Below, one piece after another: positions 4,397 through 26,357 of a DNA stretch of 26,357 nt. The position numbers and the translations under genes are program-made. This stretch comes from a virus. The notes beneath the pieces are model-generated. The model was not told the origin of the DNA and searched no databases. It saw nothing but the letters and a program-made list of their open reading frames with translations. Positions within the stretch are counted from its first letter, which is position 1. The number at the start of each line of letters is the position of its first letter. The DNA is taken from positions 1 through 26,357 of the IMG/VR virus record IMGVR_UViG_3300029319_000133; one strand, 5' to 3'.

Positions 4397-4602
4397 GTTG
4401 TCTCCATCTTTTCTGGTACTTCAATTATGTCTATTACTTTACGAATCCTTAATATATCGTAATATGTTTTTGATGACATATCATAAAGTATGTATTCTTT
4501 TTTTACTCTATTGTTTAATTTTTTTAATAATATAATAGCTTCGTCTAGTTCCATCTTGTCTGGAACATCATCTAATGCATCAGTCCATTTTTCTCTATTC
4601 AT
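4393..4602 (-). CDS. Small hypothetical protein in packaging operon
   Basis: A 69-aa acidic/basic helical protein (LDEAIILLKKLNNRVKKEYILY) with no recognisable domain, cysteine pair or membrane segment. The start overlaps the phosphoesterase stop as ATGA, and its own stop overlaps the next gene as ATGA, so three consecutive genes are translationally linked. Tight coupling on both sides is the best evidence that it is real. Function unknown. Confidence 0.6.
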   Translation of the reverse strand: MNREKWTDALDDVPDKMELDEAIILLKKLNNRVKKEYILYDMSSKTYYDILRIRKVIDIIEVPEKMETT

Positions 4603-5672
4603 GATTTTCTTAAAAACTTTAAATATTCACAAGCAATTTCTGGATTAAATATTGTAGTTACTAATCTATTGTCATCGTCATCGTATCTAGGGTCTATAAT
4701 AGTAACTGGGCAATTAAATATATTTTTATCGTCTAATCCTAGTTTGTCTGCATAACTATCCATTATTTTAAATGATGCTACTTGCAATGCATGAGATATA
4801 AGTCCTGATGATGGGTCTTTCAATACTTGATACCCTGAAACATGAGTATGTCCACAAGTAAGTATGTGGTCTTTCCATCCCATCTGAGCTGCTTTTGCAA
4901 CACCATGAGCAGTATTCCACATAGAATTACCTTTAAATGTATGCCTAGCATTTATAGTAACTTCTTTACCATTGGGAAAAATAAGGTTCATTCTTGCACC
5001 GAACCTTTCATATAAACCCTTATGGTCTCTCATAATAAATTCTAGTGGGTCTCCATCTCCACTCCATACATCATGATTACCAGCTACTAAGTATAACCAA
5101 TTTAATTTATTAACAAAGTATTCAGTAAGTTTCCATGATTCTTTTGCAGACGTAGATTGTTGTCCATACAATGCTTGTAGCCTTCCTATCCAATTGTTTT
5201 GTATGTCTCCTAAATTACCAGCAAACATTCCTTCCGTATCATTGATAAGGTCTATATACATTAATATTTGAGATAAATCTGTGCCATCGTCATCTACATG
5301 AGGGTCTCCAAAATGTGCAATACCGATTGGACCGTCAATATTTATTCTTATATCTACAAGTCTTCTACTTTCTTTTGATTTCTTTTTTTGTCTGTATGCC
5401 TTTTTTCTAAAATCTATAATATCTTCTATAGGCATTAACTCTGGGTCTCTATCGGCAACTTTAAATGGTGAGGGTTCAATTATAACAGGATTCAATGTTT
5501 TTCTACCACAAGAATTACATTGCCATTGTTGTTTTTTTATATCTTTTCTATAATGGAATCCATCTTTTCTTATATTTCTAGCACCGCACTTAGGACATCC
5601 TATAATATTACCATCGTCATCTTTTCTAAATTCATCAACTGTTTGTTTAATTGTCGTGTTTGAGTTCCCCAT
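4599..5672 (-). CDS. Zinc-ribbon metallophosphoesterase
   Basis: A 357-aa two-part protein. Residues 26-55 form a zinc ribbon (CPKC at 26-29, CNSC at 52-55) of the transposase/InsA type, which usually binds nucleic acid. A basic linker (KKAYRQKKKSKESRR, about 90-104) follows. The rest is a calcineurin-like phosphoesterase with its metal-binding motifs: D123/H125 in GDPH, D156 in NLGD, GNHD at 198-201 and GHTH at 274-277. The active site looks complete, so a metal-dependent nuclease or phosphatase is expected. Substrate is unknown; the zinc ribbon makes DNA or RNA plausible. It lies between small and large terminase, overlapping the small-terminase gene by 26 nt, which hints at a role in packaging or DNA end processing (inference). 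Confidence 0.85.
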   Translation of the reverse strand: MGNSNTTIKQTVDEFRKDDDGNIIGCPKCGARNIRKDGFHYRKDIKKQQWQCNSCGRKTLNPVIIEPSPFKVADRDPELMPIEDIIDFRKKAYRQKKKSKESRRLVDIRINIDGPIGIAHFGDPHVDDDGTDLSQILMYIDLINDTEGMFAGNLGDIQNNWIGRLQALYGQQSTSAKESWKLTEYFVNKLNWLYLVAGNHDVWSGDGDPLEFIMRDHKGLYERFGARMNLIFPNGKEVTINARHTFKGNSMWNTAHGVAKAAQMGWKDHILTCGHTHVSGYQVLKDPSSGLISHALQVASFKIMDSYADKLGLDDKNIFNCPVTIIDPRYDDDDNRLVTTIFNPEIACEYLKFLRKS

Positions 5673-6626: not shown

Positions 6627-6733
6627 TTATACACCTTTTATTTTATCCCGACCCAACCACCCATTAAGTTAAACTATTAGTCAATACTATACAAGTAAAA
6701 CCCCCAGTTATTTAGTAGAAAAATTGTAGGATT

Positions 6734-6762
6734 TTGATATGTAGCCTTTTTCCCATTATATA
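6734..6762 (+). promoter_or_regulatory. Candidate rightward sigma70-type promoter
   Basis: TTGATA at 6734-6739, a 17-base spacer, then TATATA at 6757-6762: a near-consensus -35, ideal spacing and an acceptable -10. The start site would fall inside the palindrome that follows. It would drive the early rightward genes from 6863. Seen directly; function is inferred, and AT-rich DNA yields such matches by chance. Confidence 0.4.
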
Positions 6763-6777
6763 CCCCCTATAAGGGGG
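6763..6777. repeat. GC-rich perfect palindrome (6-bp arms, 3-nt loop)
   Basis: CCCCCT-ATA-AGGGGG is a perfect inverted repeat and the only strong GC block in an otherwise AT-rich control region. It overlaps the expected start site of the candidate promoter just upstream. It could be an operator, an extruded-hairpin element or an RNA 5' hairpin. Confidence 0.7.
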
Positions 6778-6862: not shown

Positions 6863-7153
6863 ATGACGAATGGCAAAGTAACAGAACTTCGACCCTTAGT
6901 TACAAGGCAAGATTTTCTTAATGAAGCTACTAGGCTTAGAACCATTGCAGTTCACAAGCACCAACTTGCTCCGATAAGCAATAAAGGTACTTGGGATAGA
7001 TACAGTGGGCAAACTTCTTTAACCAAGAATCAAATCATGGGTGGTTTACAATCTGATTTGCAGTTTCTTGACAGCATGTGCAAACAAGCTGGTGAAGGTA
7101 GTATCTTCGCTGAAGAAGAGCCTATTGTAATCCAGCCATTAGCAGCTGAGTAA
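6863..7153 (+). CDS. Hypothetical early protein
   Basis: A 96-aa protein, the first rightward gene after the control region, with a strong AAGGAG about seven nt before the ATG. It is soluble-looking, with a basic first half (LRPLVTRQDFLNEATRLRTIAVHKHQ) and an acidic, hydrophobic tail (FAEEEPIVIQPLAAE). No recognised domain. Being first from the early promoter suggests abundant early expression, perhaps a host-takeover or regulatory factor (inference). It is followed at once by a terminator-like hairpin. Confidence 0.75.
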   Translation: MTNGKVTELRPLVTRQDFLNEATRLRTIAVHKHQLAPISNKGTWDRYSGQTSLTKNQIMGGLQSDLQFLDSMCKQAGEGSIFAEEEPIVIQPLAAE

Positions 7154-7154
7154 T

Positions 7155-7198
7155 GAGGATGGGAGTGAAGTTTAGTAGCTCCCACAACCTCTTTAATT
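7155..7198 (+). terminator. Terminator-like hairpin after first early gene
   Basis: GAGG(AT)GGGAG at 7155-7165 pairs with CTCCC(ACAA)CCTC at 7179-7191, a two-part GC-rich stem with a 13-nt loop, followed by TTTAATT. It sits two bases after the stop codon. It fits a Rho-independent terminator or attenuator, although the T-tract is interrupted. Confidence 0.5.
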
Positions 7199-7234
7199 AA
7201 TCTATTACATTTAACTGTGTGATATAAAGTGTAT

Positions 7235-7360
7235 AACTGCTCAAGTGTCGTGAGAATATGATGTGTATCTACTAAATAATATAAAGTCTAACATACAGAC
7301 AATAGGGATTATTACTTCTATTTTTACGATAACTTGGGTATTAACTTATAAGGAGCAGTT
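7235..7360 (+). ncRNA. Candidate structured element 1a (long-range stem)
   Basis: AACTGCTC (7235-7242) is the exact reverse complement of GAGCAGTT (7353-7360), enclosing about 110 nt. A small GTCT/AGAC hairpin at 7286-7300 lies inside. No open frame with a ribosome binding site is present here. Together with element 1b it fills the 297-base gap 7154-7450. The single 8-bp stem makes this one of the weaker members of the set. Confidence 0.3.
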
Positions 7361-7372
7361 CAAGAGTCTAAA

Positions 7373-7422
7373 GCGTAGATATGACACGGCATCCACTTCG
7401 CCTAAAGTAATGTGGTCTATGC
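7373..7422 (+). ncRNA. Candidate compact pseudoknot element 1b
   Basis: GCGTAGA (7373-7379) pairs with TCTATGC (7416-7422), one G-U. Inside, GGC/GCC (7388-7390/7400-7402) closes a 9-nt loop whose CCAC (7393-7396) can pair with GTGG (7412-7415), directly abutting the outer stem. AAAAATTTT follows, then the AAAGGAG of the next gene. Architecture resembles the elements at 7674-7790 and 8456-8535. Pairings are read by eye. Confidence 0.4.
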
Positions 7423-7450
7423 AAAAATTTTAATTAAAGGAGAAGTAAAT

Positions 7451-7609
7451 ATGTACACAGGAAATTGGTTTAAAGATAATTATCCAGACTTAGTAGTTGA
7501 TGCTTATAACGAGGGGAATGTATTAGTTATAGAAATTCCTCATGGCAGGATAAAGATTATGCCAGAGCATCGCAAGCCTAGGCGTAACAAAAAGAACCTT
7601 CGTAGCTAA
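7451..7609 (+). CDS. Small hypothetical protein, basic C-terminus
   Basis: A 52-aa protein beginning MYTGNWFKDNYPD and ending in a very basic tail (HRKPRRNKKNLRS). I chose the ATG at 7451 because AAAGGAG lies about eight nt upstream; the longer frame starting with GTG at 7412 would run through structured element 1b. Short beta-rich centre (VLVIEIPHGRIKIM) plus cationic tail suggests nucleic-acid or RNA polymerase binding, but no family is recognised. Confidence 0.65.
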   Translation: MYTGNWFKDNYPDLVVDAYNEGNVLVIEIPHGRIKIMPEHRKPRRNKKNLRS

Positions 7610-7627
7610 GTTGGTTCTTAGGTTTTT
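7592..7627 (+). terminator. Terminator-like hairpin overlapping a stop codon
   Basis: AAGAACC (7592-7598) and GGTTCTT (7613-7619) are exact reverse complements with a 14-nt loop, followed by AGGTTTTTAA. The 5' arm is the end of the preceding coding sequence. Shape and T-run fit an intrinsic terminator or attenuator. Confidence 0.5.
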
Positions 7628-7635
7628 AATGTAGT

Positions 7636-7660
7636 GTAGTTTTCCCTCTAATAAAACTGC
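7636..7660 (+). other. Short intergenic hairpin
   Basis: GTAGTTTT (7636-7643) pairs with AAAACTGC (7653-7660), one G-U, 9-nt loop. It lies between the terminator-like hairpin and structured element 2 and may be part of the same RNA. Confidence 0.3.
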
Positions 7661-7673
7661 ACGATGACAATAT

Positions 7674-7790
7674 AAAGAGCAAGGTCGCTCACTCTGATAG
7701 TTACTCCATTCTATCTGATATGACTTAGTTACGGCTATAACTGATACAGTAAATGCCGATTCGCAATGGCTTTGGAATGTCTTGCTCTTT
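7674..7790 (+). ncRNA. Candidate structured element 2
   Basis: A perfect 10-bp closing stem, AAAGAGCAAG (7674-7683) with CTTGCTCTTT (7781-7790), encloses three neat hairpins. These are GATAG/CTATC (7696-7715, loop TTACTCCATT), AGTTA/TAACT (7727-7742) and GCC-G-ATT/AATGGC (7755-7770). The first loop (TCCA or CATTC) can pair with TGGA or GAATG at 7773-7779, just before the closing stem. A TTAATTTT tail and the next gene's AGGAGG follow. No coding frame runs through it. Confidence 0.5.
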
Positions 7791-7809
7791 TTAATTTTAG
7801 GAGGTTACT

Positions 7810-8103
7810 ATGACAAATCAAGAAATTCATCCACATAGTTGTTCCTGTGGAGACCCTGTGATAAATCATGCTCACGAGCATCCAGAGTTAGGATGTGTTT
7901 GCTTGACTTGTGGATTAGGTGAAGAAGTAGTGTTTGATGAAGATTTGGTAAAATATTTAGAAATGATGATAAAGTTGGTTGAAGACCCTAAAACAACAAC
8001 AAGATTTGACCATGTAAGAGGAGCTGTAGAGCAGAGAGAATTGATGGTATTATATCTAAATAAAGCAATAGAGATAATTACGTTAGGAAAACCTAAGAAA
8101 TAA
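7810..8103 (+). CDS. Cys/His-rich small protein, probable zinc binder
   Basis: A 97-aa protein with a Cys/His-rich N-terminus: HPHSCSCGDP, INHAHEHPELGC and VCLTCG give at least five Cys and several His in the first 45 residues, likely one or two zinc sites. The rest is helical (LVKYLEMMIKLVEDP, RELMVLYLNKAIEIIT). Strong TAGGAGG before the ATG. Family not recognised. Its isolation between two structured elements suggests an independently controlled early gene (inference). Confidence 0.7.
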   Translation: MTNQEIHPHSCSCGDPVINHAHEHPELGCVCLTCGLGEEVVFDEDLVKYLEMMIKLVEDPKTTTRFDHVRGAVEQRELMVLYLNKAIEIITLGKPKK

Positions 8104-8105
8104 TA

Positions 8106-8216
8106 TTTGAGTGTACTTCGGTGGTTAACGCGTAACCAGCTGTAGAAAAACGGCTCCCTACATTGCGCAGGGTCATGTACCGAATTCATGTGAGGATAAG
8201 GCCGAAGGCACTCAAA
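8106..8216 (+). ncRNA. Candidate structured element 3 (cloverleaf-like)
   Basis: Closing stem TTTGAGTG (8106-8113) with CACTCAAA (8209-8216). Inside, TTCGGT (8117-8122) pairs with ACCGAA (8179-8184) around three consecutive hairpins: GGTTA/TAACC (8123-8137), AGCTG/CGGCT (8138-8155, one G-U) and CCCT/AGGG (8156-8172). CTTCGG (8116-8121) can instead pair perfectly with CCGAAG (8202-8207), so two states compete. The layout recalls a cloverleaf but lacks tRNA consensus. It starts two bases after the preceding stop. The 461-base gap 8104-8564 contains only such elements. Confidence 0.5.
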
Positions 8217-8227
8217 GATTTTAAAAA

Positions 8228-8301
8228 TGGCTCAACAATTGTTTAGATTGATGTTTCAGAATATTAACGACGTGAAATTAAAATACACAAAGGTTGAGCC
8301 A
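8228..8301 (+). ncRNA. Candidate structured element 4
   Basis: A perfect 9-bp stem, TGGCTCAAC (8228-8236) with GTTGAGCCA (8293-8301), closes a 56-nt AT-rich interior with a TTTCA/TGAAA hairpin (8254-8277). No open frame is evident. It abuts the next element. Confidence 0.4.
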
Positions 8302-8310
8302 GAAGTTTAC

Positions 8311-8453
8311 AGGCACTGTTCTCTTTCTTATATCCACAACTACAGTATACAGAAAAGGACTCCGCATCCTTAGAGCAGTGCCTTATCTTTAAGAAAGAGT
8401 AGCACTAAGTCATATGGATATGTAGTGTGAAAAAGGTCAGACCTCTCTTTCTT
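8311..8453 (+). ncRNA. Candidate structured element 5, pseudoknot with alternative pairing
   Basis: Two perfect long stems interleave in A-B-A'-B' order. AGGCACTG (8311-8318) pairs with CAGTGCCT (8376-8383). CTCTTTCTTA (8321-8330) pairs with TAAGAAAGAG (8390-8399). This is a pseudoknot if both form. AAGGA/TCCTT (8355-8371) and a CACTA...CATAT-GG-ATATG-TAGTG hairpin (8403-8427) are also present. TCTCTTTCTT recurs exactly at 8444-8453, so 8391-8399 could pair upstream or downstream, a switch-like arrangement. Confidence 0.5.
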
Positions 8454-8455
8454 TA

Positions 8456-8535
8456 TTGCCTATCTAACGCAACAGTTTACTTACTCCATTGGTGCTGTGG
8501 CTCCGTTACTATCCGTTGGAGTCGGATGTAGGCAA
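8456..8535 (+). ncRNA. Candidate structured element 6 (ACTCCA-loop pseudoknot)
   Basis: TTGCCTA (8456-8462) pairs with TAGGCAA (8529-8535). Inside, ACAG/CTGT (8472-8498) closes a loop whose ACTCCA (8483-8488) is exactly complementary to TGGAGT (8517-8522). TGGAGT also overlaps a rival CTCC/GGAG pairing (8501-8504/8518-8521). AAAAATTTTTAA follows, then the next gene's AAAGGAG. It shares TTACTCCATT in a loop with element 2. Confidence 0.45.
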
Positions 8536-8564
8536 AAATTTTTAACACATACAAAGGAGAGCAA

Positions 8565-18244: not shown

Positions 18245-21100
18245 TTACTTACCTCTTCGTTCTAGTTCTTTTAATGAGTTTTGTATCTCTATTGGTAATC
18301 CAGTATATCTTTTCTTTTTAGACCTAGTTTTTCTTTCTAATCTATCAAAGTAATATGTAGGAAACGCCTCTTTAGTTGTAGGTTCTATAATATCCCTATA
18401 TATAGTTCTTTCATCTTTTTTCTTAGGATATAATGTAAGTTCTTGCATAGCAGCTGCACCAAGACCATAAGGAGTTTTAGCAGTCATAGGTATATATCTA
18501 TCATATGTTCTTCCACCCATTTGATTCAATAACCTAGCATATCTACCATAGGTTTCCATAGTATCATCATTAGCATAATCACCAACAGTAAATAATATAT
18601 TATCTAGGTATTCACTATCTGCGTTTATTAATTCTGTCATTACACCTATGTCCATCATAGTTGCAAATGTAGGGCCTAACTTAGAACCAATAATACCTTT
18701 ACCATAAAATTCTCTGTTTATTTTTTCTATAGCATCTGGGTCATCATAGTCTGATGTAAACAATAACCATAAGTCATCTAGAAATTCTTTTCCTGTATGT
18801 TCAATAAGTGTTTGATTATATCCAGAAACGTAACTTATCAATAATGGAGCCATAAAGTATGCAACAGATACATTCATTGCTTTATGTACGCCTCTAGCAT
18901 CTTTAACCCAATTAGAAAAACTATCTTCTCCCAATGCACTTAAATCACCTTTTGCTTCTTTATATATAGACCAATTTCTTTCTAAAAATTCCATACCATA
19001 ATGTTGGAACTGAAACAAAAATTGACCTACACCTTCCCTCATATTTCTTGCTTTTGCATAACCTTCATAATCAAAATGATTAAGTAAGACCATATTCTTT
19101 GCATAGTTTTTAGTAATACTTCTTCTTAAACCTTGTACTGTAAGTTTTGATTCTGGATTATTTTCTTTTTCAGTTCTTACTTTGTTTTCTAAATATTGTT
19201 GAAACTTAGGATTGCCATCCATTATCTTTTGTATCTGAGCAAATGCAATTTCAGCAGTTAGTTTTCTATTAGCATTTTCTACACTCCTATGTAAACCAGC
19301 ACTTATGTTTGCAATCTGACCCATCTTAGTAGCGAATATTTTAGAACCTTTATATAAGAAACTTTCTTCATCTGCATAAACTATCTTACCATTTTCATCC
19401 ATCCTTCTTATTCTGTTAAAAGAAGCAGACTCACTACTTATACCAGATTCTATAAGAGCTTCTGATGTATCCATAAAAAGATTTTCTTTTTTCATAAAAT
19501 CATCTAAGTCACCACCAAATATTTCCGTAGCTCTTTTTTCCTGTAAATACTTTCTTGATTCTCTAACTGCTGAATAACCAAATGTTGCAAAGTTCATCAA
19601 ATACTGAGTAGCGTTTCTAGCTGCAGAACGTACACTAAAACCTAGTTTATTAGTAAATTGGTATGAGAGTAAGGCTTTTTTAATTTCGTGCATTGAACCA
19701 GCATTCTTTACCCTACCATTTACAGAACCGTACAAGCTATTTATTATATCAACAATCTTGCCTGCGTATTGAGATTCCTTGTTATACATTGACCTTGCTT
19801 TATTTAAAGAATCAATCAATCCACTTTTAACAAACACTTGAGTATTAAATTTATTAACATCATTAATGTATGTGTTTATAACATCAATAAAATTCATACT
19901 GTATTCATTGTAACCATCTCTTTGTCTAGACTTACCATAATCTGGTATTGCTACCTTAATATCTCTAATAATCTCATCTATAGATTTACTGTCATGTTTC
20001 ATATCTATTAATGCTGTATCTAATTCATCAAAGTGTTTCATCATTCCATCCATCATCTTAGCATTAAGTTGTTTTGTAAAATGGGGAAAGTAACCTTCTG
20101 AATATCTAGGCATTAATCTAGAACGTAAGTTTTCTTTTAACTGATTTAAGTTATCTACAGTAAGTTTAAAACCTTTTTTGTTTTCTATTTGTTTAATAAC
20201 AATATTTATTTTTTCATCAATACCATTTCTTAATACTCTATAGGAATCTTCCATCAAAGAATTGTATTTTATCAATGGACTAATTACGTCAGAAGATACT
20301 CCCAATTGTTCTAAATATGTGCGAGTTTCAGAATCAGTTAATCTTACAAGTTTTTTACCACTATCATATTGCTCAACTCTATTAATAGCATCTCTATCTC
20401 CACTATCTGCTAATGCCTTTTCTGCCTTGTATTTAATATCTATAGCTTTAGGCATTTTATCTTCTACTACTTTTATAAAATCAACAAAAGTTTTTACAGA
20501 ACCACTATTTTCAAAATCTTGCAATATCTTTCTTGCTTCGTTTTGTTCTGTTTCTGTTCCACTATCTAATGCTTTTATATAATCTATTTCTAATTGTCTG
20601 TGTTTCTTTAATGCAGAATTAAGTTTTGAAGTGCTAAATACACCAGTTATGCCACCAGATGCTCTTATTTGGTCAACTACATCTTTAAATTGTTTGTTAA
20701 GATTATCTTTTCTTTTGTTATCATTGTCAACTATCTTTCTAAGATTCTTTAAACTTTCTGCTAATACTGGGTCTCGTTTACCCAATACTGTTCCAACCAT
20801 AAATCCTTCAGTAGTTTCAAACTGTGTAAACTTTCCACTATCTACCCTTTGAGCATATCTATTTAAGTCTCTTATAAAAGAATTTATATTGCCACTAGTA
20901 AGAAATGCACCACCCTGTTCTGGACTTAACAACATGGCATATTCCATTTCTATATTAAATCTTGATTCAAACATTGACATAGCTGCTTGGTATGGAGATT
21001 GTATATTACGAGCAACCATATCTGTACTCGCCCATTTTTCTATACCATCAAGTAATTTTAATGCTTTTCTATTATATGTTTTATCGCAATCTACTTGCAT
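18245..21100 (-). CDS. Large internal virion / DNA-ejection-type protein (951 aa)
   Basis: A very long, mostly helical protein directly downstream of the giant polymerase and overlapping it by 10 nt (AAGGA about nine nt before the ATG). It has many charged coiled-coil stretches in the first 500 residues and basic helical stretches. About residues 741-760 contain a hydrophobic segment (YFMAPLLISYVSGY). The last 100 residues are basic (PKKKDERT, RKTRSKKKRYTG). It lacks any enzyme motif I recognise. Size, late strand and pairing with a giant polymerase match the internal, ejected proteins next to the RNA polymerase in crAss-like phages, or 'large polyvalent protein' fragments. Role inferred: capsid cargo that escorts DNA or polymerase into the cell. 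Confidence 0.55.
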   Translation of the reverse strand: MQVDCDKTYNRKALKLLDGIEKWASTDMVARNIQSPYQAAMSMFESRFNIEMEYAMLLSPEQGGAFLTSGNINSFIRDLNRYAQRVDSGKFTQFETTEGFMVGTVLGKRDPVLAESLKNLRKIVDNDNKRKDNLNKQFKDVVDQIRASGGITGVFSTSKLNSALKKHRQLEIDYIKALDSGTETEQNEARKILQDFENSGSVKTFVDFIKVVEDKMPKAIDIKYKAEKALADSGDRDAINRVEQYDSGKKLVRLTDSETRTYLEQLGVSSDVISPLIKYNSLMEDSYRVLRNGIDEKINIVIKQIENKKGFKLTVDNLNQLKENLRSRLMPRYSEGYFPHFTKQLNAKMMDGMMKHFDELDTALIDMKHDSKSIDEIIRDIKVAIPDYGKSRQRDGYNEYSMNFIDVINTYINDVNKFNTQVFVKSGLIDSLNKARSMYNKESQYAGKIVDIINSLYGSVNGRVKNAGSMHEIKKALLSYQFTNKLGFSVRSAARNATQYLMNFATFGYSAVRESRKYLQEKRATEIFGGDLDDFMKKENLFMDTSEALIESGISSESASFNRIRRMDENGKIVYADEESFLYKGSKIFATKMGQIANISAGLHRSVENANRKLTAEIAFAQIQKIMDGNPKFQQYLENKVRTEKENNPESKLTVQGLRRSITKNYAKNMVLLNHFDYEGYAKARNMREGVGQFLFQFQHYGMEFLERNWSIYKEAKGDLSALGEDSFSNWVKDARGVHKAMNVSVAYFMAPLLISYVSGYNQTLIEHTGKEFLDDLWLLFTSDYDDPDAIEKINREFYGKGIIGSKLGPTFATMMDIGVMTELINADSEYLDNILFTVGDYANDDTMETYGRYARLLNQMGGRTYDRYIPMTAKTPYGLGAAAMQELTLYPKKKDERTIYRDIIEPTTKEAFPTYYFDRLERKTRSKKKRYTGLPIEIQNSLKELERRGK

Positions 21101-24100
21101 TTTGCATATTCCTTCATCATTCTAAATGATTCATATCCAGAGTCTCTCATAGGATTTTGCCTAACTCCAGTCATTAAATCCTCATGTACTTGATTAACAC
21201 TTTTAAGCATATTAAGTAAAGTATTTGAAGACTTAATTTGTTTAGGTTTAAACTTTAAATATTTCAAATGAGTAAACATAGGATTATCTTTTACATGACG
21301 AGGTAATCCATTTTCATCAGCCATAGTAAATATATCTTTTTTAATTATTTCTAAAAGTTGTTCATCATTATCCAATCTTTGTTTTAAATATTTCATAGGA
21401 TTTAAATAATCTTTCCTAGATGAAAGTTCATCTAAATCATTTATTGAATCAATAAATTTTCTATAATCTTCTTTTGACTTATCTGGCATCATATCTGCGT
21501 AACTCATGTAAAATTGAGTTACTGATTTATTTATAGTTGATAGTGGATTAGATGGCAACATCTGAGATAACCAATCAAAATCAGAATTATCTTGTCTCAT
21601 TCTATTTTCTACATTTTTAGTAAAAGGCATTAATCCAAATCGTTCCATATTGGAATCTGTTAAATTCATCATAGAAATATCTTTGTCAAAAAATCTTCTA
21701 TAATGTTCATTAGACTCTATCATTCCACTCAATATCCACTCACCCCATTTTTGAGATTGTTCTTTAGCATCAATAGTGTCGCCTAATTCTAATTTTCCAT
21801 TCGCCAATCCAACTATAGTTTGTAATCCATGTCTGTATCTAGCACTTTCTTTGTAAGGCATTGCTACTGGTCTATTGTTAAATATTCCTATGTCATCTCT
21901 GTTTCTAATCGGTTCCATATATGCATAAAGAAAATTTATTCCATGCTTTTCTATCATTGATATTAAATAATTTTGTCTTAACTCAAAAACACTACTCATG
22001 TCACCTTTATGTTCTTCAACATATTTAAATACTTCATTGTTTGTTATAAGAGATTCTTTTCCATATGGAAATATTTCATCAAGTAATGTATTAGAACCAT
22101 AAGTCTGTTTGTTAAATTCTTTTATTGCCTTCAAGTCTGTCATTGCAATATCATCTAATGTTTCAGTCCAACTATCATATCGAGTTCCATGAAAGTTTCT
22201 TAACATTGCATTCATTGTATTTGCATGAATAATGCTTGTTTTTAAGTCACTATCTTCTATAGCAACATACTTTTTATATTTTAAATCTTTAGGATGTATT
22301 TTTCTTTTAACAGATTCTGGGTATTTTTCTCTAAGTTCATTAGTTAATTTGTTTATAACCCAATCTATGTTTGATATTTTTTTCTTTTTCCACTTCCAAG
22401 AATAATTAGTTTTTTCTATTTGTTTCTTTTTCTTATCTAAGTTTTTAATTATTGCTACTTGCCTATTAAACCTTTGAGTGTCGTCTTTTATTCCTTTCGA
22501 TATTTCATCGGACCTCTCAACAAAAGCATCCTGTTCTTCCTGTGTATTTCCTGTAGGTTCCTGTTGGTCAAATGGGTCTTGCAATCTTGCATAGTCTTCA
22601 AATCTAGAAGGACTAGATACTAGTCTATTATACCAATTATCTATTTCTTGAAATGTTTCTATATCTAAGTTGTATTCTTTTTTATTTTCTAATAAATCTC
22701 TTGTACCTATCTGAACAGCGATTCTATCTAAATAATTGCCGCCATCGCCTTTAGCAACATTTTCAACTGCATCTGCTATTGGTTCAAATCTATTTTGTTT
22801 TTTATCTAATAATGTTTCTAAATATTCTTTATTTTTTATATCAGACTTTTTATATGCTAAGAATCTATTTAATCCATCATATACATCTTCATGGAAACTT
22901 TTAAATACTTTACTAGCCATATTCATATCATAAAAACTAGTTTTTCTTTTTTCACCAGCAACATACTTACTATCACCAAAAGCATTAAGAAGTTTATTCT
23001 GTTGATTCAAAAACTCTTTTATAATCAATTTATCTGCATCATTTAAATCTTTTGTGCTTTCTTGATACTTACCATCTACTAATTCATATTTAGAAAATAT
23101 CCTCACTCTTTGACCGTTAGCGGTTCTTCCATTTTTTAATATATCTTTTAAGTCTTGAGAACTAGCATCTGTAGGAGATATTGAATCTGCATATTTTGGA
23201 AATAAAAAATTATCCGCCCATTCATATATATTCCCTGCTATATTTTTATTTAATTTATTTGCACCATCAATAATATATTGAACCTCTAAAGCTGCTCTTT
23301 GATAATAAGCAAGAGATTCTGTATCAATTGTAACAACTTCTGTTGTTTTTCCATTTGCATCAACATCAGAATTATAAAGAATCGAAGGTCCTATTAAGTT
23401 TCCTTCATCATCTTCTGTAACTACATTTTCCCATGCTTTTACTTTTTTTGTTAAATGATTTCTATTCGCTAGGTTTTGTAAATAATTTAATTTTCTAGGA
23501 GTTTTCTGTGCTAATCCAATTGCTTTTTTAAATGCTATGCTTTGACCCATCTTTTGCAATGTAGCTTTTCTAGAATCTGTAGCATTCATTTGAAATGTAA
23601 AAGAAGGTTTCTCTTGTAAGTCATTAGGGTCTATTCCTTGAACATAAAATGCTTGATTTCTTTTGATATAATCAAACATATAGTCACTATGTGCAAAGAA
23701 GTAATCTACTTTATCAGCATCGTAATCACCTTCATATACATTAGCAATATCATAACTGTTAATCTCCACACCCAATCCCTGTTCTTTATCTAAGAAACCT
23801 TTTAATCCCAATAAGGTTATATCATTAGGTCTTGTTCTTGGATTTCTTCTTGATACTATTCCAATTTCATATCTTGTATTTACTAATTTAGATAATTTTT
23901 CTAAAAAATCGTGAACACTTCCTATTGTTCCATTACTAAATATATCATCTAAATTTTCAATAACTTTATTATCTGCATCTTTTATTTTTAAAAGTTTTGC
24001 TAATCCTTCAGTATCTTTTATTTGTTTAGCAAACTCTTCTTTAAATTGTTCCAATGTTAATACTTTAGTATTTTGGACTATTCTAATATTTTTATCGTCA

Positions 24101-26357
24101 GGCAATTCAGATAAACTAGTATCTCTTTCTTTATGTGGAAGGGCTATTTGACCTCTTAATATCATTTTATTATTAGAATCAAACAATGTAGGAAACAATC
24201 TAGTTTTTAATCCTTCACCTAAAAATGACTTAGCAGATTGAACTAGTGGAGCTTGCCCTCCATATCTATTAGATTGCAATGCTAGGTTTTTATCTTCTTC
24301 AGAATAAACTCTATTAGTAATAGACCTTCTTGTGCTAAACAATGTGTCTATATATTGTTGTGCTAAATACTTTTGAACTTGACTTGAACTATAATCATAT
24401 GGATTAGCCGCATCATTTAATTGCAAGTAATACATCATATTGCTAAGATTAGATAAAGCTCCTTGTTCTGGGGAATCTGGTATATTATTTTTTTCCAATT
24501 GTTCCCTCATAAAAAAGTTCATTTTATAAGGGTCCGCCATTATAGATTCCATTTGATTTAAGTTAGCAGTTAACTCGTCTATCAATCCTTTAAATGCATC
24601 TCTATGCTCATCTCTATTCATATAATTATAATCAGCGTCAGACTCACTTGCAGATAAAAGGTCAGCATCTTTTTCTGGTCTAAAACCTATAGCATCTAAA
24701 TCTATCTCTCTTATAAATGTATTCCTATCTGTTATCCTGTAATCTTTTAAATCATTCCACTCCAATCCCTTAAGAATACTATCTTGTTCTTCTCCATCAA
24801 CTATCTTAGGGTCGTATATTTTTGCACCAGAATCGCTTAATAATATATCTACAGGGTTTTTATCAAAGAACCCATCTAATGCTGGGCTATAGACAAAAAG
24901 GGTTTTACCATATAGTAATGTTTTACCTTCTCCTTGAGATGATATTATTGGTTTAATTGGATTTTTAGAATCTGGACTGTGACCCATCATTGTATGATAT
25001 TCAGACATAGCACCTTTAGATAAAAATGCTATACTATCAAAGCCAGAAACTTTTTCATGCGCTCTTCCTACAATATTTTTTCTATCGTATCCTTCTAGTT
25101 CTGGTATCTGGTCTTTAAATTCATTAACAACATCATCAACAATCTTTGCCATATTTTCTGTGCTATCATCCCATATAGCTACTCTATGTTTTCCATCTCT
25201 CAATCTTTCTTTTAACAACTCAGAAACTGGGTCTGCAAAATCTCGTTCAATAGCTGCTCTAGATTGTATAATAGATTCTAAATAAGTTTTTGTTGGTCTT
25301 ATAAAGTTTTTAGTAGTTACTAGTTTAATTCTTTTAATGTATTTATCTACCTCAACTGCATCTTTAGAATTAAGAACTCTTAATAATTCAGTATCGCTAT
25401 CACTTTTCAATGCAGTTTCAAGTATTAAATATTTCATAGCAGTTTCAATACTTGCTTCGTCATAAGAATGCTCGTTCTTAGTTCCATCAAAAGTATCTTT
25501 TAATGCTTGTATTGGTTTTTTGTTTTCAAGTAAATCTTTATATTGATTATAAAATCTTTCAAAGTCTTCAACAACCTTAACCATATCGCTACGATTAATT
25601 ACTATACTGTCCATCCCATCATAAATATCTAATTTCACTATACCAGTTTCAATACTAGATAATCCTTTTTCATTCAAACCAGTATCTAGGTTAGCCATTG
25701 AAATATTTACATTTTTTAATTGATTAGCAACTCTACTCCTTACTTCATTTATTTTTTTTATTTCTAATTCGCTTAATCCTTCCGTACTTAGTATGTTATA
25801 AGTTCTTTCTTGTATGTAATCTTTAAAATCTGTATAAACTACATTATTATCAAAAATTGAATAATTTAATTTTAAACTATTAAGTTTTTGAAATACTGGA
25901 TTATCTTGAAAAAATTCTTTTTCTTTGTCAGGGTCATATTTAATAGTTGAATTTCTAATAGACATTACAGGAACTTCTATCCTGTCTTTTAAACTAAAAA
26001 CTACTTGAGTTACATCCTCTATTACCGCACTTCTTTTTTTATCATTTAAGTCTTTAAACTCTACTCCATCTAAAACTACATCTCTTTGTAATCTATTTAT
26101 AGATTGTTGATTAAGATTTCCAAAATCATCTAACATATACTGTTGACTTTTAAATCTATTTGATTTTTCAAAAGGAGTTTCATTGGAATAATCAACATAC
26201 TTAACAGTTCCATCTTGGTTTTCTATTCTAAAATTATATTTTCTATAAAAGTCATCTATTCCAATCGAAGGATTTTTTACTTCATCCCTTGCTTCTTTAA
26301 CATATCTCCTATCAATCTTTTGCCTTTCCTCTATTTCTCTTAATATAAATTCATCTG
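21091..26357 (-). CDS. Giant single-chain DNA-dependent RNA polymerase (two double-psi beta-barrels), 5' end outside window
   Basis: The frame is open to the window edge, so the Met at 26136 is probably internal; at least 1754 aa are encoded. Numbering from that Met, a beta-like barrel shows EGKTLLYGKT (K405, K411), SPALDGFF, then PVDILLSDSGAKI. This parallels RpoB's lysine pair, NPIEDMPY and PVDIVLNPLGVPSRM. A beta-prime-like barrel shows RPNDITLLGLKGF (R769) and, exactly 35 residues later, D804-Y-D806-A-D808 followed by KVDYFFAHS. This parallels RpoC's RAPTLHRLGIQAF and NADFDGDQMAVHVPLS. Both barrels in one chain is the layout of YonO-like and crAss-like phage polymerases. Late strand and size suggest that it is packaged and injected to transcribe early genes (inference). 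Alignment was done by eye against RpoB/RpoC from memory. Confidence 0.8.
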   Translation of the reverse strand, partial: DEFILREIEERQKIDRRYVKEARDEVKNPSIGIDDFYRKYNFRIENQDGTVKYVDYSNETPFEKSNRFKSQQYMLDDFGNLNQQSINRLQRDVVLDGVEFKDLNDKKRSAVIEDVTQVVFSLKDRIEVPVMSIRNSTIKYDPDKEKEFFQDNPVFQKLNSLKLNYSIFDNNVVYTDFKDYIQERTYNILSTEGLSELEIKKINEVRSRVANQLKNVNISMANLDTGLNEKGLSSIETGIVKLDIYDGMDSIVINRSDMVKVVEDFERFYNQYKDLLENKKPIQALKDTFDGTKNEHSYDEASIETAMKYLILETALKSDSDTELLRVLNSKDAVEVDKYIKRIKLVTTKNFIRPTKTYLESIIQSRAAIERDFADPVSELLKERLRDGKHRVAIWDDSTENMAKIVDDVVNEFKDQIPELEGYDRKNIVGRAHEKVSGFDSIAFLSKGAMSEYHTMMGHSPDSKNPIKPIISSQGEGKTLLYGKTLFVYSPALDGFFDKNPVDILLSDSGAKIYDPKIVDGEEQDSILKGLEWNDLKDYRITDRNTFIREIDLDAIGFRPEKDADLLSASESDADYNYMNRDEHRDAFKGLIDELTANLNQMESIMADPYKMNFFMREQLEKNNIPDSPEQGALSNLSNMMYYLQLNDAANPYDYSSSQVQKYLAQQYIDTLFSTRRSITNRVYSEEDKNLALQSNRYGGQAPLVQSAKSFLGEGLKTRLFPTLFDSNNKMILRGQIALPHKERDTSLSELPDDKNIRIVQNTKVLTLEQFKEEFAKQIKDTEGLAKLLKIKDADNKVIENLDDIFSNGTIGSVHDFLEKLSKLVNTRYEIGIVSRRNPRTRPNDITLLGLKGFLDKEQGLGVEINSYDIANVYEGDYDADKVDYFFAHSDYMFDYIKRNQAFYVQGIDPNDLQEKPSFTFQMNATDSRKATLQKMGQSIAFKKAIGLAQKTPRKLNYLQNLANRNHLTKKVKAWENVVTEDDEGNLIGPSILYNSDVDANGKTTEVVTIDTESLAYYQRAALEVQYIIDGANKLNKNIAGNIYEWADNFLFPKYADSISPTDASSQDLKDILKNGRTANGQRVRIFSKYELVDGKYQESTKDLNDADKLIIKEFLNQQNKLLNAFGDSKYVAGEKRKTSFYDMNMASKVFKSFHEDVYDGLNRFLAYKKSDIKNKEYLETLLDKKQNRFEPIADAVENVAKGDGGNYLDRIAVQIGTRDLLENKKEYNLDIETFQEIDNWYNRLVSSPSRFEDYARLQDPFDQQEPTGNTQEEQDAFVERSDEISKGIKDDTQRFNRQVAIIKNLDKKKKQIEKTNYSWKWKKKKISNIDWVINKLTNELREKYPESVKRKIHPKDLKYKKYVAIEDSDLKTSIIHANTMNAMLRNFHGTRYDSWTETLDDIAMTDLKAIKEFNKQTYGSNTLLDEIFPYGKESLITNNEVFKYVEEHKGDMSSVFELRQNYLISMIEKHGINFLYAYMEPIRNRDDIGIFNNRPVAMPYKESARYRHGLQTIVGLANGKLELGDTIDAKEQSQKWGEWILSGMIESNEHYRRFFDKDISMMNLTDSNMERFGLMPFTKNVENRMRQDNSDFDWLSQMLPSNPLSTINKSVTQFYMSYADMMPDKSKEDYRKFIDSINDLDELSSRKDYLNPMKYLKQRLDNDEQLLEIIKKDIFTMADENGLPRHVKDNPMFTHLKYLKFKPKQIKSSNTLLNMLKSVNQVHEDLMTGVRQNPMRDSGYESFRMMKEYAKCK

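Follow-up and report, generated by a model that had tools for sequence, protein, structure and literature searches.

A giant phage protein predicted to be a single-chain two-barrel RNA polymerase and probably carried in the virion

The window analyzed here is a stretch of 26,357 bases out of the 40,706 bases of a record from an unclassified small phage. It contains the C-terminal 1754 codons and the stop codon of a giant gene in the ORF list (21091..26355, minus strand). Based on structure modelling, the core of the encoded protein is predicted with high confidence to be a two-barrel RNA polymerase (RNAP) related to the RNAPs of crAss-like phages. Judging from the gene position, it is also likely that this RNAP is packaged in the virion. 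The protein most likely represents a new family of virion RNAPs with two barrels in a single chain, in phages that are not recognizable as Crassvirales. We call the family new, as a variant of the known virion RNAPs, because the phage group, the length, the N-terminal half and, possibly, the domain arrangement differ. By analogy with known systems, these viruses would probably deliver an RNAP of their own into the host cell.

Such a family would mean that single-chain two-barrel virion RNAPs also occur in small phages (approximately 40-55 kb) that are not recognizable as Crassvirales. The group of the crAss-like and QDE-1-type polymerases would gain a divergent branch. Many unclassified viral contigs may start infection without the host RNAP. 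Furthermore, the compact predicted catalytic core (approximately residues 310-1240) is expressible, and a candidate template is defined.

The giant gene, its relatives and its predicted catalytic motifs

The RNAP frame is open at its 5′ side within the window because a scaffold gap interrupts the gene: a 10-base run of N lies directly past the window edge (G000:C1 26358-26367, which corresponds to L029 5559-5568). Beyond this gap the RNAP gene resumes, and the N-terminal part of the protein is outside the window. In complete relatives, the gene is a single uninterrupted ORF of 2,851-3,003 amino acids. Thus, the window holds roughly the C-terminal 60% of the protein. A first-pass annotation of this DNA had counted at least 1754 amino acids for the protein, and neither this length nor the idea of a start inside the window was borne out. 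Its residue numbers began at the first in-window Met, and the addition of 73 converts them to the 1754-residue frame used here. Because of the gap within the giant gene, two shorter proteins would be annotated in this record.

The gene was found at about 90 IMG/VR loci of uncultured relatives. Successive IMG/VR searches gave 27, 51, 70 and 78 loci per round, in overlapping sets, with identities down to 25%. The dN/dS values of the RNAP gene were 0.10-0.23. Therefore, the gene is under purifying selection. No stops interrupt the ORFs of this family when they are read with the standard code. In two crAss-like records (L101 and L103), stops interrupt the RNAP ORFs, and these were read with TAG as Gln. 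Reading of TAG as Gln has been reported for some crAss-like phages. In two relatives (L078 10001-12361 and L079 10001-12352), about 100 residues are inserted between the catalytic regions, at the place expected for the clamp connector.

All motif strings quoted in the first-pass annotation were located on the minus strand; PVDILLSDSGAKI corresponds to residues 501-513 and RPNDITLLGLKGF to residues 842-854 of the 1754-residue frame. The beta-like (DPBB-B) segment comprises residues 458-524 (24784..24984, minus strand), and the beta-prime-like (DPBB-A) segment comprises residues 827-889 (23689..23877, minus strand). The latter contains the DYDAD metal-binding triad, D877, D879 and D881 (residues 877-881; 23713..23727, minus strand).

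The DxDxD motif alone is at chance level. When the protein was shuffled, DxDxD occurred 1.35 times per protein on average and at least once in 72% of the shuffles; with an Arg 35 residues upstream, it was still found in 6% of the shuffled proteins. Since an Asp-rich protein readily contains DxDxD, the case depends on the homologues. Conservation of the triad had been named beforehand as a test, and DYDxD is invariant in all homologues examined. In an alignment of 49 sequences, which extends down to approximately 25% identity, K468, K484 and K512 are invariant together with DYDxD. The same is true for P469, T485, D503, P839, T841, D845, F854, G860, E875, G876, Y878, Q1026, D1030 and R1085. Over the entire 2,881-residue reference, conservation has its two highest peaks at the two catalytic motif blocks. 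Because these residues are conserved across homologues, we take the motifs as real.

K468, K484 and K512 are lysines of the beta-like region, N-terminal to the triad, and are candidate catalytic residues from the alignment. Two lysines had been proposed earlier. K411, which is K484 in the present frame (codon 24904..24906, minus strand), is a candidate active-site lysine and is invariant across the 49 sequences. In contrast, K405 (K478) varies among homologues and is not retained as a catalytic lysine. It had also been proposed that DYDAD lies 35 residues after an Arg, as in E. coli RpoC. The string is present at this distance. However, some members have K, T or S in place of the Arg in question, R842. 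Thus, the spacing that matches E. coli R425 is coincidental. Another arginine, R837 in RRNP (codon 23845..23847, minus strand), lies 40 residues ahead of the triad and aligns with the invariant RxP arginine of the crAss-type RNAPs. It is shared by 48 of the 49 sequences.

Relationship to known RNA polymerases

Searches at the sequence level detected no known RNAP. The protein gave no RNAP match against Pfam, PHROGs and PDB sequences, where only chance matches such as caspases appeared, and a profile of 39 sequences gave no RNAP match against PDB. No match was obtained by tblastn against 50,697 phage records, and a contig search of other genomes did not find a relative. The family is thus invisible to Pfam, PHROGs and the named-phage collection. 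The motifs had originally been aligned to RpoB and RpoC. No sequence match to them was found, and the PDB profile search returned neither; support for a resemblance to QMAVHVPLS was likewise not found. The phi14:2 genome also gave no match, either with the family profile or by tblastn. The link to phi14:2 is visible only through profile-profile and fold comparison. We did not find a published account of this RNAP family in the literature searched, and it may already be listed in the tables of a phage RNAP survey.

The profile of 49 sequences was compared with ten crAss-type RNAPs. The triad region alone was aligned (E 3e-4 for the whole profile), so that homology was detected exactly at the triad. 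When the DPBB-A segment was used in hhalign, the E value was 2e-5, and its score was reached by none of 100 and none of 60 column shuffles. For DPBB-B, homology to the crAss-type RNAPs was not significant by sequence alone. A parallel can be drawn by eye between KP...GKT.F...(V/L)DIL...SxxK of this family and LKP...K.SEF...ID...SAVK of the crAss type, and it is not statistically significant.

The RNAP core (residues 310-1240; 22636..25428, minus strand) was modelled by AlphaFold2 with 39 homologues, with pLDDT 83.4 and pTM 0.84. In a Foldseek search of 350,542 PDB chains, the sole match with E ≤ 0.001 was 6VR4, the phi14:2 virion RNAP (E 4.3e-7, probability 1.00). The next match had an E value of 0.012. 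Among the matches listed, ranks 2-30 were weaker and were all two-barrel polymerases or complexes with them, including RDR2, an RNA-dependent enzyme. PolD, T7-like RNAP and P23-45 gp96 were not among the PDB matches listed. The global superposition on 6VR4 was poor (TMq 0.28, rmsd 26.9). This means that either the domain arrangement differs or the inter-domain placement in the model is uncertain. In the BFVD viral library, the first two fold matches were unnamed proteins, A0A516M3R5 (TMq 0.78, 22% identity) and A0A516L9L2 (TMq 0.68, 18% identity). Further unnamed proteins and several crAss-like phage RNAP proteins occupied the lower ranks.

The fold match, the ordered motifs and the conserved triad agree with the initial proposal of one chain in which a beta-like region is followed by a beta-prime-like region. 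Two double-psi beta barrels (DPBB) are expected in this superfamily, and the whole-core match to a solved two-barrel RNAP would be in line with them. The proposal had also named the phi14:2 RNAP among the known relatives, and by the single significant PDB match this RNAP is the nearest one with a solved structure.

For the N-terminal half, 1,140 residues of a complete relative were modelled likewise (pLDDT 76, pTM 0.54). The model was mostly helical, and its fold search gave no significant match. Since this half was modelled in the same way and found no match, it serves as a negative control for the core match. No resemblance of the N-terminal region to a known ejection protein was found. Homology to Zobellviridae internal virion proteins was also considered for this half, and the comparison gave no support. 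In the full-length protein of approximately 2,880 residues, the RNAP motifs are located near residues 1,600-2,010.

Similarities to and differences from the known systems are as follows. Like this protein, the phi14:2 RNAP has within one chain a Lys region and then a DxDxD region. It is the best PDB fold match, the profile homology is at DPBB-A, and both genes are among structural genes; the phi14:2 gene (Phi14:2_gp077, KC821624) is in a block annotated as structural from MS/MS. However, phi14:2 is a crAss-like phage with a genome of about 100 kb, whereas this record is 40.7 kb, its relatives are up to 54 kb, and this phage is not recognizably Crassvirales. Furthermore, the present RNAP is approximately 2,880 residues long with an N-terminal region of about 1,100 residues of unknown fold, unlike the phi14:2 type, and its triad is DYD(A/V/I/F/Y)D instead of DFD(I/V)D in the crAss type.

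In P23-45, the virion RNAP is fused to the tape measure protein (PMC10770324). P23-45 gp96 thus also joins a two-barrel RNAP to a large phage protein, but the RNAP is N-terminal in a tape measure protein of 5,002 residues, whereas here it extends from the middle of the chain towards the C-terminus. For the present protein, the family searches gave no tape measure match. The N4 virion RNAP of Schitoviridae (PMC12633501) is likewise a giant single chain (approximately 3,500 residues), in which an N-terminal region precedes the RNAP domain. It is injected, as would be the case here, but it has a T7-like palm fold, whereas the fold matches indicate a two-barrel enzyme here. In YonO-like and QDE-1-like RNAPs, a single chain contains both barrels (PMC7824862), as is predicted here, and YonO would be a distant relative.

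Phage context, proposed packaging and alternative explanations

The phage genes of this record include portal (phrog_156), TerL (phrog_38), TerS, endolysin, DnaB helicase, a Cas4-like exonuclease, a methyltransferase, a Holliday junction resolvase and a DUF932 protein. TerL is approximately 23% identical to the nearest named phages, among which Zobellviridae ranked first. For TerL and portal, on which the Crassvirales comparison rests since the capsid protein is beyond this record, the nearest relatives listed are not Crassvirales. The TerL and DnaB comparisons gave no informative host signal. Between TerS and TerL, a predicted metallophosphoesterase (DNA repair exonuclease PHROG; 4599-5672, minus strand) with an apparent N-terminal zinc ribbon is conserved in relatives.

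The giant gene is on the structural strand, at its end, and is preceded by genes of 639, 341, 424, 165 and 329 amino acids. It is followed by a gene of 951 amino acids (18245..21100, minus strand), with an overlap of 10 bases at the 3′ end of the RNAP gene. This gene is a conserved neighbour in the ORF list and in relatives, and its product is a candidate co-packaged protein. A family match was not found for it. The early gene module is on the plus strand, at about 6.9-18 kb of the window.

The packaged-and-ejected model is based on analogy with phi14:2, crAss001 and P23-45. In crAss001, the RNAP-associated proteins are capsid cargo, and their extrusion through the tail in a partly unfolded state has been proposed (PMC10172136). 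The gene product would be a DNA-dependent single-chain two-barrel RNAP with a mainly helical N-terminal region of about 1,100 residues. It would be made late and packaged in the head together with the neighbouring structural proteins. It may then be extruded, partly unfolded, into the host before or with the DNA. After refolding in the host, it would transcribe the early module without the host RNAP.

An active two-barrel RNAP might instead be made in the infected cell and not packaged. Non-virion two-barrel RNAPs are encoded by P23-45 and many other viruses (PMC10770324), and packaging is here a matter of inference. However, the gene is in the structural module and not in the early module. 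Moreover, it is fused to a long helical region, and large fused regions of unknown function are a feature of the crAss-like and N4-type virion RNAPs (PMC10770324). We consider a non-virion enzyme improbable.

It is much less probable that the protein has the two-barrel fold but is an inactive ejection or structural protein, or another polymerase (RNA-dependent or PolD-like). The weaker match to RDR2 would fit an RNA-dependent enzyme. However, the three Asp residues and the lysines are invariant to 25% identity, which argues for catalysis. In addition, the best match among solved structures is a virion RNAP that is DNA-dependent, and PolD is absent among the matches listed. Finally, a chance resemblance of the motifs in an ordinary large phage protein is hardly credible and is largely refuted: the DxDxD frequency in shuffled proteins and the silence of all family libraries would allow it, but the invariant motif residues, the purifying selection, the specific fold match and the conservation peaks exactly at the motifs contradict it.

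The early promoter candidate and the adjacent non-coding region

Between TerS and the first early gene, which are oriented divergently, lies a conserved intergenic element (6731..6777, plus strand). This 47-bp block can be aligned in eight genomes, including distant ones. Within it, ATTTTG and CCTTTTT are invariant, and there is a short inverted repeat rich in GC. In two distant relatives, the stem of the repeat remains complementary despite changed bases (CCCGT/ACGGG and CCCCT/AGGGG). The pattern of its first 32 positions was detected in 29 IMG/VR contigs, once each, and always beside the TerS of this group. A sigma-70 type sequence, TTGATA-N17-TATATA, is present in the region of the element. 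From these sequence features, the element may be an early promoter, used by the virion RNAP or by the host sigma-70 RNAP, or a packaging signal. The element was also considered as a multi-copy promoter set, and further copies were not found; it occurs as one copy per genome where found.

As a speculative extension of the packaged-RNAP reading, this single hairpin-bearing promoter might start the whole early programme, with an ejection-protein-like helical region and the RNAP combined in one polypeptide. We regard this as unlikely. If true, the single-promoter mode would be convergent with the hairpin promoters of the N4 virion RNAP, on a cellular-type catalytic fold.

At 7150-8550 (plus strand), there is an early region of which about 1 kb is largely non-coding, with several segments closed by hairpins. 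A search of this region against Rfam gave no match. The folding z-scores were -3.6 at 8095-8225 and -3.4 at 7150-7200. The nearest relatives, L115 and L116, share much of the region at the DNA level, and it is possibly a set of small structured RNAs.
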